Source of the DNA: Myxococcales bacterium
Lineage (GTDB): Bacteria; Myxococcota; Myxococcia; Myxococcales; Myxococcaceae
DNA length: 27,904 bases
Reading direction: 5' to 3'
NCBI GenBank assembly: GCA_003153055.1
Contig: PMBV01000241.1
Coordinates: forward strand, 174-28,077
The notes under the pieces are model-generated. The model was given only the letters and a program-made list of their open reading frames with translations. It was not told where the DNA came from and did no database searches. This document shows, in pieces, positions 4,212-27,479 of this stretch. How positions within the stretch are numbered: the first letter of the stretch is position 1; the number at the start of each line of letters is the position of its first letter. The position numbers and the translations under genes are program-made.

Positions 4212-7287
<3,076 letters not shown>

Positions 7288-10489: not shown

Positions 10490-11962
10490 ATGTCCTTCGA
10501 GCGGCTCGGCGGCACCCAGGCAGAGGCTTTTCTCTCGGGCTCCTTCGCGCTCGCCCGCGACGCGGCGGTGACGCCGACCTGGTACGAGTCGGCCGTGAGG
10601 GCGCTCGAGGCCGCGTACACCGAGCGGCCTTTGATTCCCTCTCCGACGCTGGCCATCGACCTCACGGCGCTCTTGCACGGCGAGCGCTTGCTCCCGGTGA
10701 CGCCGCCGGCGCTGGTCTCGGTGCGAGACGCGCTGCGGGCCTATGAGGATCACGTGCTGGCCCGGCTCACGGCCGATCGCCGGTGGACTCGCCTCACCGA
10801 GGCCGTCGCCGCCGCTCCCAAGGAACTGCACGCCGCCGCCGTCGGCATGACCGTCGCCCAGGTGCTGCAGCGCCTCGGCGTCACCGTGGGGACTGGTCTG
10901 CCCACCGGCAGCGTGCGGCGGCTCGCTACCCGGCCCATCGACGAGGTGCTCGAGGCGGGTCGCGCGGCGCTCCATCAACAGGCCATGGCGGCGCGGTTGG
11001 CCGAGGGCTTCCAGGTGATGGCTAGAGCAGCGCGGCGCACCCGCGAGCTCTTGTCTGACGCCGAGGTCTTCCTCATCGAGAACATCGCCGCCCTCAAGGG
11101 GCTGGGCCCGCGCGTCGCCCTGGGCCAACTGGCCGAAGTGGCCCAGGCCATCGAGGAGCGGCTCCCCACCCGCCTGCGGGGGCACGCGCTCGACGAGGGC
11201 GAAACGCCAACCCGCCTCGAGGAGGACTCGGCCTACCCGGTGGGCGGCTTTTCGAGCATCTCGACTCAGGGCACCCTCGAGAACCTGGTCACCAGCGAGC
11301 TCATGTACATGGAGGCCAGCGCTGACGAGGCGTCGCGGCCCGACCTCTTCGACGTCCGCTTCGTGGAGAGCGAGCTCTTGTACTACGCCCGAGACGAGTC
11401 GGTGGCGGTGCGTCGCAAGCGCGTCTTGGTGCTGGTCTTCGACCCCTCGCTGGTTCGGGCGAGGGTGCTGGACGTCAAGGAGTCGTGGCAGCGGCTGGTG
11501 TGGCTCCTCGGCAGCGTCACGGCGCTCGTCCGGCGGTTGTCCGAGTGGCTCGACACCGAGGCGGTGCGCTTCGAGTTGGTGTTCACCCGAGAAGACGGAG
11601 AGGCCCCCTTGCAAGAGGAGAAAGACGTCCTGGCGCTGGCCCTCCGCGAGTACCACGAGCGCGGTCAACTCGAGCTGACCCTGGCCGACTCGTCGGCGGC
11701 GGCGATCACCCACGCTCGCGAGGTGCACGGCCAGCGCGCCCGGGTGATGGTGTTCGGCGCCAGCCCGCCCGAGCACCTCGAGGGAGACAGGGCGCCCGAT
11801 GCCTACGTCGACGCCTCGGGGTCGAGGCCCTTGGTGCGTTGGCTCGACGGCACCCACGTCGAGGTGGAGGGCGCCGGCGACGCCATGGAGGCTTGGGCCG
11901 CCACCACTCGCCAGGTGCTCGACGGGTTGCTCCGGCGACGAAAGGCGAGGGTCGCGGCGTGA
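10490..11962 (+). CDS. Large cytoplasmic protein with possible vWA-like C-terminal half
   Basis: The 490-aa protein has no signal peptide or membrane segment. The N-terminal half is alpha-helical and Ala/Arg-rich. From about residue 275 (LVTSELMYMEA...RPDLFDVRFVESELLYYARDE) the pattern changes to alternating strands and helices: RRKRVLVLVFDPSLVRAR, a long helix (SWQRLVWLLGSVTALVRRLSEWL), RFELVFTRE, then ARVMVFGASPPEHL. A strand ending in VFDPS followed by a helix resembles the start of a von Willebrand A fold, although the DxSxS metal site is incomplete (D-P-S-L-V). Similar proteins occur, as far as I recall, in the AAA+/vWA 'FtsH ternary' conflict systems described in multicellular bacteria; the AAA+ partner is not in this window, so the link is a weak inference. 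The stop overlaps the GTG of the hydrolase gene, so the two are translationally coupled. Confidence 0.75.
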   Translation: MSFERLGGTQAEAFLSGSFALARDAAVTPTWYESAVRALEAAYTERPLIPSPTLAIDLTALLHGERLLPVTPPALVSVRDALRAYEDHVLARLTADRRWTRLTEAVAAAPKELHAAAVGMTVAQVLQRLGVTVGTGLPTGSVRRLATRPIDEVLEAGRAALHQQAMAARLAEGFQVMARAARRTRELLSDAEVFLIENIAALKGLGPRVALGQLAEVAQAIEERLPTRLRGHALDEGETPTRLEEDSAYPVGGFSSISTQGTLENLVTSELMYMEASADEASRPDLFDVRFVESELLYYARDESVAVRRKRVLVLVFDPSLVRARVLDVKESWQRLVWLLGSVTALVRRLSEWLDTEAVRFELVFTREDGEAPLQEEKDVLALALREYHERGQLELTLADSSAAAITHAREVHGQRARVMVFGASPPEHLEGDRAPDAYVDASGSRPLVRWLDGTHVEVEGAGDAMEAWAATTRQVLDGLLRRRKARVAA

Positions 11963-21455: not shown

Positions 21456-22499
21456 ATGACGACCACGAAGAAGACCCTGAGCAGCCGCGGTGCCATCTTG
21501 ACCGGCCTTGGCTGCCTCCTCGCTCTCTCGGGCGCGGGTTCCGCTCAGGCCGCGGGAGGCAAGCGCGTCGAGCTGCTGAATGTCTCGTACGATCCGACCC
21601 GCGAGCTCTACGAGGCAGAGAACGCCGCCTTCGCCAAGCAGTGGAAGGACAAGACTGGCGACGAGCTGGTGGTGAAGCAGTCACACGGCGGTTCGGGGAA
21701 GCAGGCTCGGGCCGTCATCGACGGGCTCGACGCCGACGTGGTCACTCTGGCGCTGGCGTATGACGTCGACGCGGTGGCGAAGGCGGGGCGCGTGGCGCCC
21801 GACTGGCAGAAGCGGTTCCCCCAGAACTCCACGCCGTTCACCTCGACCATCGTGTTCCTGGTGCGCAAGGGGAACCCCAAGGGGCTCAAGGGCTGGGACG
21901 ACCTGGTGAAGCCGGGCGTGGCGGTCATCACTCCGAATCCGAAGACGTCGGGCGGGGCGCGGTGGAACTACCTCGCGGCCTGGGCCTATGCCTTGAAGAA
22001 GAACGGAGGCCAGGAGGAGAAGGCGAAGGAGTTCGTCCGGGCGCTGTACAAGAACGTGCCGGTGCTCGACTCAGGGGCTCGTGGGTCGACCACCACGTTC
22101 GTCGAGCGAGGCATGGGCGACGTGCTGCTGGCGTGGGAGAACGAGGCGTTCCTCGCGGTGGAGCAGCTGGGGAAGGGGAAGTTCGAGATCGTCGTCCCGT
22201 CGGCGTCCATTCTCGCTGAGCCGCCGGTGGCCCTGGTCGAGAAGAACGTCGAGAAGCACGGCACGCGGGCCTTGGCCGAGGCGTACCTGGGCTTCCTCTA
22301 CACGCCCGAGGGCCAGGAGATCGCCGCGAAGAACTTCTACCGCCCCCGTGACCCCAAGGTCGCCGCCAAGCACCCAGGGCAGTTCCCGCACCTCGAGCTG
22401 TTCACCATCGACGCCGTGTTCGGTGGGTGGACCAAGGCTCAGGCGGCACACTTCGCCGACGGGGCGATCTTCGATCAAATCTACACTCCGGGTGCGTAG
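21456..22499 (+). CDS. sbp: Sulfate/thiosulfate ABC transporter periplasmic binding protein
   Basis: The 347-aa protein starts [15 protein letters not shown] with a signal peptide cleaved near SAQA-AGG. The ATG at 21456 was chosen over one at 21450 because GGAG (21446-21449) is six bases from it and only touches the earlier one. The mature part follows Sbp/CysP closely: [43 protein letters not shown] (anion-binding Ser/Gly), [60 protein letters not shown], and the ending [30 protein letters not shown]. It binds sulfate or thiosulfate in the periplasm. The usual permease and ATPase genes (cysT, cysW, cysA) do not follow: the next gene is antisense and overlaps its last 19 bases, so this is an orphan or was cut off from its operon. 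Its last 24 bases recur at 25071-25094. Confidence 0.92.
22476..22499 (+). repeat. 24-bp direct repeat, left copy (3' end of sbp)
   Basis: This 24-bp sequence includes the sbp stop codon and the stop codon of the antisense helicase gene. It recurs in the same orientation at 25071-25094 with a single mismatch (T/C at the seventh base). The two copies bracket the helicase gene, 2,595 bp apart start to start. A repeat that rebuilds the 3' end of a host gene on one side is the usual mark of site-specific integration, but no integrase is present in between. Confidence 0.8.
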
Positions 22500-24856
22500 C
22501 CTCGGGGGCCTGGGGCATCTGGGGAGGGACGGCGGCTCTCCGTGGCGATGTAGCCTTCGCAGCAGGCTGCGGCCTGGCCCTGCCAGACGAGCACCGTGAT
22601 GGCACGGGCCGCCAACAACACATCGGTTTCAAGCACGGCGGCTAGGTCGGTCAACGAGAGCGGCGCGGCAGCCTGCACGAGTGCTGCAAGTGCCGTCTCA
22701 GCCCAGCGTCGCTCGCGTCGAGATGGTGGCGGTGGGCGCGCTCGAATGACGACCAGTTGGTGGACGTGGCCTGGTCGGATCGGGCGGCCCTCGTTGATCG
22801 CCCGTTCCTCGACAGGCATTCGGCGAGCGTACCAACGCAACTGGCGGAGCGCCTTGGCTTCGATTTCGCGCACGTGTTCGCGGGTGACGCGCTCCTCGTA
22901 TCCAAGCTGCTCGAGTGTCCTGGGGGCTTCACCATGGAGGCCAAACCTGCGCTCGACGACAGACAGCGGCCTTGGCGGGAGGGAACTCATCCAGCGCGAG
23001 GGTTGAGACAGGTACTCGGTCGTTAGAATCCGGTCGAGCGGCGTTGGGGACTCCGGCGCGTTACCGCCGCTGAAGATTCGAAGGGACTCGAGTGCTGCCA
23101 GGCGGTCCGCGCTCCTGCGCGCCTTGCGCGCGACCGCTCGTTCGAGATGCTCGAGGTCCTCGCCGCAGGTTTGTTCGCAGACGGAATGCTCGCCGGGTTC
23201 GAAGCCGGAGAGGAAGCGGGCACCCACGGCGTCGGGCTCGGCAACGCAGAGGAACCGCAGGTAGCCCGCCTCGTCCGCGGGGAAGCCCAACCACTCGAGA
23301 AGCGCCTCGCCCCGGCCCGTGAAGAGCCGATGCCGGAACAGGAGCGCCCGAAAGCGGTAGCGACTCGGCGGCTTCGTCGGGTCGAAGTCAGGGCAGGTCG
23401 CCAGGACGCGCTCGACCCCGGCTCGATCCCCGCGGCGCAGGGTCGGCTTCTTGAGCTCTGCCGCCAGCAGGATTCGTTGGCGCAGCCGAACGCCGGCCAC
23501 CGGCGTCGACAGGTGTTGTTGGAGCGCGCGCTGCCCACCGCCGCTGGGCTCCGGCTCGCCGAGCACCGTGCCGGCGAGATAGCCCCCGACGGGGGTCCCA
23601 AAGAGGTCTGTCGGGAGCGTGGGGAGCGCTGGAAGGTCGCGCGGCAGGAGCACGTAGATGTGCGCTTCCTCGGTGCCGCTTCGGGTCATGGCGCGGAAGT
23701 ACTTCTGAGTCGCTCGCACCCTGGACACGGACGGAGCGAGGTCGATGAGGAGCTTACAGCGTGGAGAGCTCCAGCCCTCGAGCAAGACGCCCACTTGGAT
23801 GAGGGTGTCGATTTCGCCCGCCTCGAAGCGCGCCAGGGCAAGCTCGCGCTCCTCTCGAGGAGTTCCCCCCAGCAGGAGCGCAGGAGTCGGGGCCCCGAGC
23901 GGACGGTGGGCCTCCAGGTACTTCGACAGATCGTAGGCCTGCTGCCGGGTCGAGCAGCAGAGCAGCGCGGCCTTTTCTTTGTTGCCTTGCGCGTACCGAA
24001 AGAGCTGCGTCGCCTTGAAGAAGGGGGCCGCGGACATCAGGCGACCGAGCGTGTCGCGCTGGTAGTCGCCGGCAACCATCTTCACGACCGAGCCGGCGTG
24101 ATCGACCTCCGCGACCCAAATTCGCGCGGGCGCCAGGAGCCCGAGCTCCAGGGCCTCGCCGAGGGAGACCTCGTGGATGAGCTCGGGGAAGAAATGGCAC
24201 AGGCGGCGCTCGGCGTCATAGTCGGGTGTCGCCGTGAGCGCGATCCGAAGGGCCTCGGGTTCGAAGGCGTCGCGCAGCAAGGCCGTGCGTGAGCCAGTCA
24301 TCGCCCGGTGCGCCTCGTCGACGAACACCAGCGCCGAGCGTCGCATGGGCCCAGGAACCGCCGCCGCGCCCAGTCGCTGGAGCATGGAGTAGGTGGTGAC
24401 GTTGATTCCGTCGGCGACGACGGCCCGCTCCTCGCCGCTCAGGACGCCGATGGGGGTCCGCGGCAGCATCTCGCCGAGGAGCCGCCGGGTTTGCTGGATC
24501 AACGTTCGAGTGGGGACGACGATGGTCGCGGTCAGTCCGCAGCGACCGATGATCTCGCCCGCGAGCACGGTCTTGCCAGTGCGGGGCGGCAGGACGATTC
24601 GGCAGAAACCGCTGTTCGGGATGGGCTCAGCGGCGCGTGCATGGCTGATGAGGTACTCAGCGAACCGCTCGAAGACCAGCGCCTGGTCCGCGCGAAGCGA
24701 GAAAGAGGCCGAGACAGGGCTCTCCCCTCGGTTTTGCAATCTGGAAGCCGCGCGCTCGAGACGCTGACGCATCGAGCAGGCGCTCTCGCCCGCTTCGAGA
24801 CCCAACGGCTGCGCGGCCGCCGCGTGTGGGAGCTTGCCGACCATGGTGCGACGCAT
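22481..24856 (-). CDS. SF2 DEAH-box helicase with C-terminal sigma-70 region-4 domain
   Basis: The 791-aa protein has a complete superfamily-2 helicase core: a Q-like motif ([12 protein letters not shown]), Walker A PPRTGKT (90-96), DEAH (180-183), LTATP (207-211), and in the second RecA domain [26 protein letters not shown] and motif [12 protein letters not shown] (384-393). A middle region (about 430-600) has two Cys (560, 564) but no full zinc site. Residues about 621-677 match sigma-70 region 4 closely: [18 protein letters not shown], then [18 protein letters not shown], the -35-recognising helix-turn-helix of principal sigma factors. The last 75 residues ([13 protein letters not shown]...[15 protein letters not shown]) look like a winged helix. 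No nuclease domain was seen. The first ATG (24856) lies inside a palindrome; ATGs at 24844 and 24772 are alternatives. No Shine-Dalgarno decides. It stands alone between direct repeats. Function is unknown; DNA/RNA unwinding at promoter-like or phage sequences is conjecture. Confidence 0.88.
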
Positions 24857-25158: not shown

Positions 25159-25869
25159 ATGGCTCACCCTCCGAGGACCATCATCACCGACTTCCGCGAG
25201 CTCCCCGAGGTCAGCCCTGAGGAGCTCGCCGCCGGCCGCTCCCTCCCAGCCTTCTTGGCGAGCATCGTCGCGGCCGCATCGATGGAGCCTGCCCACTCGA
25301 AGGCGCGACTGCCGCTCCGCTGCCGATGCCGGCCCGGACACCGCGCCTGCCCGGGCAACATCCTCATCACCCGCCACGTCGCTGCCCTCGACGTGCAGTG
25401 GCGCTGCTCGAAGTGCGACTTCAGCGGCGTCATCAGCCACTGGCAGGACTCAGCGTGGGACTTGGGGGCGCCTCAATACCCAGATGTCGAAGTCGTCGCG
25501 CCCGAGCTCCCCCGAAATCGCGTCCCAGCGGCGCTCGCGGGGCGGTGGCTCTTTACCGAGATGGAAAGCTGGGACGCCGACGCCATGGGTCTGGCGTACA
25601 TCGAGTTCGCGAAGCATGGCGGCTCGCTCCGCTTCATCGCCATCGAGGGTGGGCTCGATTGCCGCTACGGCGAGGTGGACGGGCGCCCGTCGGTCGAGTT
25701 CTCGTGGATGGGCGAGAATGAAGGCGACGCGGCCTGCGGGCGTGGCTGGGTTCACCTCCAGACCGACGGCTCCTTGGCGGGGCGAGTCTTCATTCACAAC
25801 GGCGACGACTCTTGCCTCATTGCGACCCGGGCCGATGGGCCCAAACCGCGCAAGTCCCGCCGCCGATAA
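25159..25869 (+). CDS. Zinc-ribbon protein with GRWxxxEMExWD-type C-terminal domain, function unknown
   Basis: The 236-aa cytoplasmic protein joins two conserved but uncharacterised modules. The N-terminal half has a zinc-ribbon pattern: LRCRCRPGHRACPG, then VQWRCSKCDFSGVISHWQ, the C-x-C/C and C-x2-C layout seen in many small bacterial hypothetical proteins. The C-terminal half (about 128-225) starts GRWLFTEMESWDADAMGLAYIEF and continues LRFIAIEGGLDCRYGEVDGRPSVEFSWMGENEGD...GRGWVHLQTDGSLAGRVFIHNGDD, a domain often encoded alone. The last residues are basic (KPRKSRRR). No enzyme motif is visible. It lies just right of the repeat that ends the helicase segment and is divergent from it. Confidence 0.8.
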   Translation: MAHPPRTIITDFRELPEVSPEELAAGRSLPAFLASIVAAASMEPAHSKARLPLRCRCRPGHRACPGNILITRHVAALDVQWRCSKCDFSGVISHWQDSAWDLGAPQYPDVEVVAPELPRNRVPAALAGRWLFTEMESWDADAMGLAYIEFAKHGGSLRFIAIEGGLDCRYGEVDGRPSVEFSWMGENEGDAACGRGWVHLQTDGSLAGRVFIHNGDDSCLIATRADGPKPRKSRRR

Positions 25870-26459: not shown

Positions 26460-27479
26460 TCAGTCCCGTTCACCCAGGAGGTAGGCGTTGGAGATGGCCT
26501 TGAACGAGAGACGCCCTGCGAGGACGTCACTGCGCAGCTCCTCCCGCGGGCGAATCACGATGCCTTCCCGCTGGCTCTTCGTCCCCGGGTAGAGGCCCTC
26601 CGCCTTGGCGAGGAGCGATTCGACCGTCTCGTCGAAGCGCTCGCCCTCGAAAGCCACGGGCACGGGCTCGAGGCCGTGCTCCCGGCAGAACGCGCGGAGC
26701 TCGGCGTCGTCGAGGCAGCGGCCGTCGCCAGTGTCGAAGACGCTGAAGACGAAGAGGTCCTTGTCCGCGAGGCCGACCGGGTTCCTCTGGATGCCTGGGC
26801 CCACGATCTCGCCCTGAATGGCAAGCCGCGGGGCCTTCGCCAGCACCTCGCCGATTCGGCGCTTCTTCGCCACGTACCAATAGAGGTTCTCGCCCTCGAG
26901 GATGGAGTGGTTCCGCCCGCAGACGTGGAGCTCGCCGTCGAGCATCAGGAAGGTCGTGCTCGTCCCGTCCATCTTCACCGTGGCCACGAAGGGCCTGCCG
27001 CGGAGTTCATCGAGCACGCTGGGCGCGGACTGCACGCGCTGCTCGTCTGTCTTCGGCACCAGGCCCGGGAACGGGCCGCGGTACTCGCCCATGCCGGTGG
27101 GCGGCGGCGGCTCGTACTTGGTGACACCGAGGCGCTCAGTGACGTCGTCACCCTCCTGCACACCGTCGATCCCAACCGCCTCGAGCGGCAGCAACAGCCC
27201 TTGCGACAGCACCCCACGGAGCGTCGCGGTGCGTATGCGGAACTTCTCGGGGCGGGGCACCGGAGCGGCCGCGCCCTTCGGCTGCCAGAGCCAGGCGTAG
27301 CGCGGGGAGTCGGGAGGCACCGAGTCGATCTCCAGGTACATCGCTAGGTCCCCAGGCCGTACCTCGCCCTTCTTCACCACACATTGCCAGCCGGAGACGC
27401 GAGCGAGCTCGATGCGATCGGCGTTGGCGATAGGCGCGACGGTGACGATTCGCACAACGGAGGCGAGCTTGCGCTTCAT
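26460..27479 (-). CDS. ATP-dependent RNA ligase, DraRnl (Rnl5) type
   Basis: The 339-aa protein has the size and layout of Deinococcus DraRnl. The N-terminal OB-fold-like module (MKRKLASVVRIVTVAPIANADRIELARVSGWQ...GDLAMYLEIDSVPP) is followed by a nucleotidyltransferase domain with motif I VKMDGTS (adenylated Lys169), GRNHSI, QGEIVGPGIQ, motif III FVFSVFD (243-249), motif IV EGIVIRP (305-311) and motif V SFKAIS (Lys327). Such ligases join 3'-OH and 5'-phosphate ends, preferring nicks where the 3' side is RNA, through ligase-adenylate and RNA-adenylate steps. A strong ribosome site precedes the ATG. No kinase/phosphatase or other RNA-repair gene is next to it. It may form an operon with the small membrane protein gene downstream. 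It lies between the copies of an 84-bp direct repeat. Confidence 0.93.
   Translation of the reverse strand: MKRKLASVVRIVTVAPIANADRIELARVSGWQCVVKKGEVRPGDLAMYLEIDSVPPDSPRYAWLWQPKGAAAPVPRPEKFRIRTATLRGVLSQGLLLPLEAVGIDGVQEGDDVTERLGVTKYEPPPPTGMGEYRGPFPGLVPKTDEQRVQSAPSVLDELRGRPFVATVKMDGTSTTFLMLDGELHVCGRNHSILEGENLYWYVAKKRRIGEVLAKAPRLAIQGEIVGPGIQRNPVGLADKDLFVFSVFDTGDGRCLDDAELRAFCREHGLEPVPVAFEGERFDETVESLLAKAEGLYPGTKSQREGIVIRPREELRSDVLAGRLSFKAISNAYLLGERD

Follow-up and report, generated by a model that had tools for sequence, protein, structure and literature searches.

The gene at positions 22481 to 24856 (minus strand) of a 27,904-nucleotide stretch of Myxococcales bacterium contig PMBV01000241.1 (the window) is predicted to encode a protein of 791 amino acids, or of 787 with a start four codons downstream. 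We confirmed that this protein joins a superfamily 2 (SF2) helicase to a sigma-70 region 4 of the principal sigma factor type and a predicted winged helix. In its usual place, region 4 belongs to the subunit with which the polymerase recognizes promoters, and its firm presence in a DNA motor throughout a family of at least about 260 database sequences shows that the module has been put to another use. Our preferred reading, held tentatively and at slightly under an even chance, is that the protein is a stand-alone ATP-driven duplex-DNA translocase of the RadD/XPB type that carries a captured principal-sigma region 4 as a DNA anchor.

Two RecA-like domains were found by Pfam. The first (ResIII, residues 53 to 212, positions 24221 to 24700; all domains lie on the minus strand) carries PPRTGKT, DEAH, and TATP, and the second (Helicase_C, residues 290 to 384, extended to 388 for motif VI, positions 23693 to 23989) carries EGW and QKYFR. 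Walker A, DExH, and motifs III, V, and VI are all present in the two domains, so that the ATPase motifs are intact and the protein qualifies as an SF2 helicase or translocase. Region 4 and its preceding linker helix (residues 604 to 688, with a Pfam core at 622 to 674; positions 22793 to 23047) were recognized by Pfam, NCBIfam, PDB sequence matches, and the predicted structure. The Sigma70_r4 model (PF04545) matched residues 622 to 674 with an E value of 1.4e-9 and 37.8 bits, against a curated cutoff of 24.1. NCBIfam sigma models matched the same stretch (best, RpoD, 2e-13, residues 605 to 675), with scores far under the cutoffs for whole sigma factors, as expected for a single domain, and residues 602 to 680 matched solved chains of RpoS, SigA, and RpoD at about 1e-8. 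An earlier note, made from the letters of the window, had placed a helicase core and a region 4 in one chain, followed by a winged-helix-like tail. Its coordinates and motifs proved correct, the profile search bore out the sigma assignment, and the tail corresponds to a winged helix in the predicted structure (residues 713 to 771, positions 22544 to 22720), which sequence searches detect in eight of the 135 family members, the window protein and its seven nearest relatives. No sigma region 2 appeared among the Pfam matches of the protein at E ≤ 10, and hence it does not classify as a sigma-70 family sigma factor; nor was any nuclease family found among its Pfam matches, a point that bears on the comparison with type I/III restriction subunits. 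Between motor and region 4 lies a family-specific middle domain (residues 478 to 551, positions 23204 to 23425) with block-mean predicted local distance difference test (pLDDT) values of 85 to 97 over most of its length. Its motif FxGxGxxL has both glycines and the first leucine invariant in 135/135 members; no PDB match among those listed covers the domain, and structural comparison barely reached it, so that it could still be a known fold.

The fusion is a property of a family. A protein search returned 259 relatives at E ≤ 0.001 and a profile search 275, and the best 120 of each were pooled into a set of 135 proteins that includes the window protein. Search candidates were limited by shared words, which probably leaves further members uncounted. 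From 10 sigma factors of carrier genomes we built a region-4 profile, which at E ≤ 0.01 matched 124 of the 135 members, 100 of them at 1e-5, and none of 1,350 shuffled sequences. Therefore, the fusion is neither a chance match nor an assembly artifact, and the homologs called for in the earlier note do exist. When five further members were scanned with sigma models, four matched, and P0029 and P0130 exceeded the cutoff of the sigma70-ECF superfamily model. The source names of members include Myxococcales, Polyangiaceae, Kofleriaceae, and Thermodesulfobacteriota, to which genome records add Deltaproteobacteria and Patescibacteria (e.g., Uhrbacteria). Existing annotations call members either a helicase or a sigma-70 factor, and one source gives P0132 both domains.

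Judged by its nearest folds, the motor would translocate on double-stranded DNA, and region 4 may grip duplex DNA through its retained contact residues, thereby placing or anchoring the motor. In the window subclade, where the −35-reading residues persist and a winged helix is added, the anchor might prefer −35-like sites. The role would be to repair DNA or to remove obstacles (R-loops, stalled complexes), and not to defend against phages. To appraise the contact residues, 134 members (1/135 was dropped as too short) were aligned with the 10 sigma factors of carrier genomes, with numbering by the E. coli RpoD tail. The recognition-helix stretch thus aligned comprises 18 residues (657 to 674, E. 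coli 582 to 599; positions 22835 to 22888). Peptides containing region 4 alone bind promoter DNA, and R584 and E585 contact bases at −31 and −33 (PMC2613000), while PMC4943231 gives 16 −35-box positions and 6 polymerase-core positions. The fold is conserved (G564 in 131/134 members), and R554 (115/134), R586 (122/134), and serine or threonine at 583 (119/134) are common. The base readers vary: R584 is found in 55/134, E585 in 61/134, R588 in 74/134, and Q589 in 104/134. The window protein retains R584, E585, and R588, with E at 589; it keeps 11 of the 16 box positions, a number that 10 members, itself included, reach or exceed. Since it retains these three readers, −35-like binding is possible for the window protein, as far as its residues indicate.

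Several results weigh against the anchor reading or narrow it. R584, E585, and R588 are all retained in 30/134 members and all lost in 36/134, and in conservation the base readers do not exceed positions drawn at random from the domain (P = 0.48). Because the base readers are this variable, reading of the −35 element finds no support as a rule for the whole family; of the docking on −35-like DNA proposed in the earlier note, what survives is the possibility for the window protein. The 16 box positions taken together are likewise no better conserved than random domain positions (P = 0.30), the window protein has H instead of R at 586, and the assignment of contacts to backbone or bases is our own reading, the two being given together in the excerpt of PMC4943231. 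The structure prediction (predicted template modeling score [pTM], 0.53 to 0.55) leaves the orientation of region 4 relative to the motor uncertain. Eleven of the 135 members, which may be cut or divergent, were not matched by the host-sigma profile, and the copy at locus L111 gave no sigma model match at E ≤ 1e-5. The fusion protein scores 20.9 bits with the NCBIfam RadD (YejH) model, against a cutoff of 720, and 24 bits with the XPB model, against a cutoff of 610. Repair genes adjoin the family gene at only 2 of 16 loci, and the nearest printed case of a sigma-like domain on a motor, BrxL, is part of a defense system.

Region 4 may instead tie the motor to RNA polymerase, by way of the beta flap, or to promoters with polymerase bound, which would make the protein a transcription-coupled translocase with a role like that of Mfd, RapA, or eukaryotic XPB in TFIIH. 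We regard this as doubtful. It suits the principal-sigma type of region 4 and a motor fold near XPB and Mfd, and the flap domain is reported to be the route by which small helix-turn-helix proteins, among them T4 gp33 and minimal phage sigmas, contact polymerase (PMC7824862). The six polymerase-contact positions are slightly better conserved than random sets from the domain, though not significantly (P = 0.07). The family mean is 2.5/6 identical and 4.7/6 with similar residues, compared with 5.4/6 identical in the host sigmas, and the window protein retains 4/6, or 5/6 with similar residues. However, E555 is present in only 23/134 members, R562 in 74/134, and F563 in 81/134, and the better-conserved positions 565, 577, and 598 by our own reading also shape the fold. 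Thus, the polymerase docking suggested in the earlier note keeps partly conserved contact positions in its favor, several of which the fold alone could account for. Member P0093 bears on both sides of the question: its region 4 is 58 to 65% identical, over the last 82 to 83 residues, to sigma factors of six genomes, yet R562 and F563 are replaced in it.

The origin of the domain was also considered. Compared over about 70 amino acids, the region 4 of the fusion shares 37 to 42% identity with six host sigma factors. A tree was built over 109 columns from 28 members chosen by hand and 11 sigma sequences, one of them the E. coli tail. One side of a branch (support, 100/98) consists of the sigma sequences, with P0093 adjacent (98/92); many other forks are weak. 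Overall, the C-terminal 304 residues of P0093 align with seven listed family members at 39 to 48% identity. These data suit descent of region 4 from a principal sigma factor, or a later replacement of the P0093 domain; for P0093 itself, a recent domain replacement is possible.

Comparison with known systems helps to place the fusion. The motor fold resembles those of the repair translocases RadD and XPB, and Mfd is also among the structural matches. The likeness to XPB/Rad25 lies in the fold of both motor domains, and XPB is not known to carry a sigma domain. Within TFIIH, XPB/Ssl2 stimulates promoter opening, and TFIIH also serves repair (PMC9557730); RadD bears a zinc ribbon (PMC9049331). 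With the principal sigma factors (RpoD/SigA), the fusion shares region-4 homology including the preceding linker helix, but it shows no region 2 match, has region 4 behind a helicase, and relaxes the base readers across the family. Mfd, RapA, and HelD would be comparable in role if docking were true, although they contact polymerase via other domains and none is known to do so via region 4. BrxL is a motor-type DNA-binding ATPase of the AAA+ type. In this protein of the BREX (bacteriophage exclusion) defense system, structural homology identified an N-terminal sigma-type tri-helical helix-turn-helix followed by an oligonucleotide/oligosaccharide-binding (OB) fold (PMC12839542). Unlike BrxL as described there, the fusion has a C-terminal sigma domain that is evident from sequence and attached to an SF2 motor. 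MzaA, of the MZA antiphage system, likewise carries a region 4 at its C terminus, but the fusion scores 49.5 bits with the MzaA model (NF041931), against a cutoff of 800, and the match is confined to residues 620 to 679. About 480 of the 726 positions of the model are covered in its matches to sigma-like proteins; 270 of 291 genomes match it at E ≤ 1e-100, none above the cutoff, and the one match checked (G011:C110) is a sigma factor, L124. MzaA is thus a sigma-type protein, sigma-like over most of its length, and not a helicase, which rules it out as a sister fusion.

No description of a helicase-region 4 fusion was found in literature searches aimed at the architecture and its relatives, in which subscription journals mostly lay outside the coverage. 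PMC12458937 gave no match to the sigma terms tried, and in the excerpts of PMC7824862 and PMC8195603 sigma factors and helicases are dealt with separately. The fusion therefore consists of known parts in a combination that we did not find described, with the sigma-like helix-turn-helix of BrxL as the nearest printed case. Were region 4 no more than a DNA anchor, the family would plainly illustrate how a sigma domain can be turned into an ordinary helix-turn-helix; should it instead direct the motor to promoters or polymerase, it would connect transcription with DNA processing in a new way. That a captured region 4 brings an XPB-like translocase to promoters or RNA polymerase, as a sparse accessory gene distributed from myxobacterium-like genomes to small-genome candidate phyla, is in our view unlikely; were it true, this would be the first known bacterial SF2 motor targeted via a sigma/beta-flap or −35 code.

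The gene is sparsely distributed. With strict cutoffs and genome sets that overlap in part, it was found in 4/282 genomes of the phylum of G001 (3 of them already known carriers), 4/332 of the phylum of G009 (1 already known), 3/240 of the class of G003 (all known), and 1/16 of the order of G118. The 0/297 obtained for the phylum of G011 comes without a positive control, as the only known carrier there has a broken gene that falls under the cutoff. The 11 genomes reached through loci each hold one family-level place (in pieces in G011), and their weaker matches are part of a motor or region 4 alone. The family gene of L011 (G011:C21) is in pieces and contains a stop, apparently a decayed copy. 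A virus-borne gene was considered and rejected: among viral contigs, the 80 retained of 113 tblastn relatives are all partial, covering the motor part or little beyond at 22 to 28% identity. The six matches in phage records, likewise partial, fell on the motor (one) or on region 4 (five), and plasmids gave five, all to region 4 and its flank.

A further possibility is that the protein is a single-gene antiphage or antiplasmid effector that senses strong promoters or foreign DNA, which we consider quite improbable. Sparse occurrence (e.g., the 4/282 and 4/332 above) would fit such a role, as would weak PADLOC matches of the window protein itself to the helicase parts of PbeA and mREase_IV and the presence of sigma-type domains in the defense proteins MzaA (PMC9523054) and BrxL (PMC12839542). 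The neighborhoods may count against it. Sixteen of them (15 relatives and the window) were compared by BLAST at 1e-5, and no neighbor was common to more than 3/16 loci. Shared neighbors were ABC (ATP-binding cassette) ATPases in three loci (22 to 28% identity), UvrB in two, and an SNF2-type helicase in two (L114:6340-9204, which adjoins the family gene, and L002:6990-7658; 40% identical to each other); a neighbor pair is common to L108 and L111 (27%), and the two-component genes of the window match one gene in L011. PADLOC was applied to 81 of about 201 called neighbor open reading frames (ORFs) from the 15 relatives' loci, with the best 25 of 189 matching families considered, and 9 of these 81 neighbors and one further neighbor were resolved singly. 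Those of the apparent strong matches to Dpd, Zorya, and mads that were resolved singly proved to be RecQ in L108, the SNF2-type helicase of L114, and, in L004, an ABC transporter ATPase, and no defense system was recognized in the parts checked. Phage sensing, raised in the earlier note, finds no support among the neighbors thus covered. Two weaker neighbor matches, which the effector reading could claim, are unexplained: L010:1967-6289, a 1,440-amino-acid neighbor of the family gene of L010 with a candidate-defense match (PDC-M26A, 4.2e-23), and L106:10303-14046 (REase_III, 5.7e-11). In L004, the ORF at 5182-6681 carries Schlafen-AlbA and Fic-like parts. Identified neighbors, immediate or near, include glutamyl-tRNA synthetase, a racemase, an S58 peptidase, RecQ, UvrB, a glycosyltransferase, an epimerase, an M50 protease, aquaporin, and an ABC transporter; 6 of 20 neighbors scanned singly had no Pfam match.

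Finally, region 4 might be a relic or an internal scaffold that stabilizes the motor or an oligomer and binds neither DNA nor polymerase, as its lower conservation relative to the motor and the members without a sigma match would allow, but this too is improbable, since R586 and R554, which contact DNA in sigma, belong to the best-conserved positions of the domain, and members that share about 40% identity with the window protein still have the fold.

The window has a G+C content of 69%, which together with the relatives of the protein points to a myxobacterium-like host, and the flanks of the helicase-sigma gene hold genes for a solute-binding protein, a cation ATPase, an RND (resistance-nodulation-division) efflux set, a two-component pair, a rhamnogalacturonan lyase, a glutathione S-transferase, and an RNA ligase. 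The ORF at 10490 to 11962 (plus strand) encodes a von Willebrand factor type A domain of FtsH ternary systems (PF19997, E = 7.4e-36; PF19996), and no FtsH partner for it was seen among the window ORFs scanned. Divergent from the helicase gene, the ORF at 25159 to 25869 (plus strand) encodes a protein of 236 amino acids with several cysteines in its first half and no Pfam match. The RNA ligase (26460 to 27479, minus strand), which has a PHA02142-type OB fold, lies about 1.6 kb upstream of the helicase gene.
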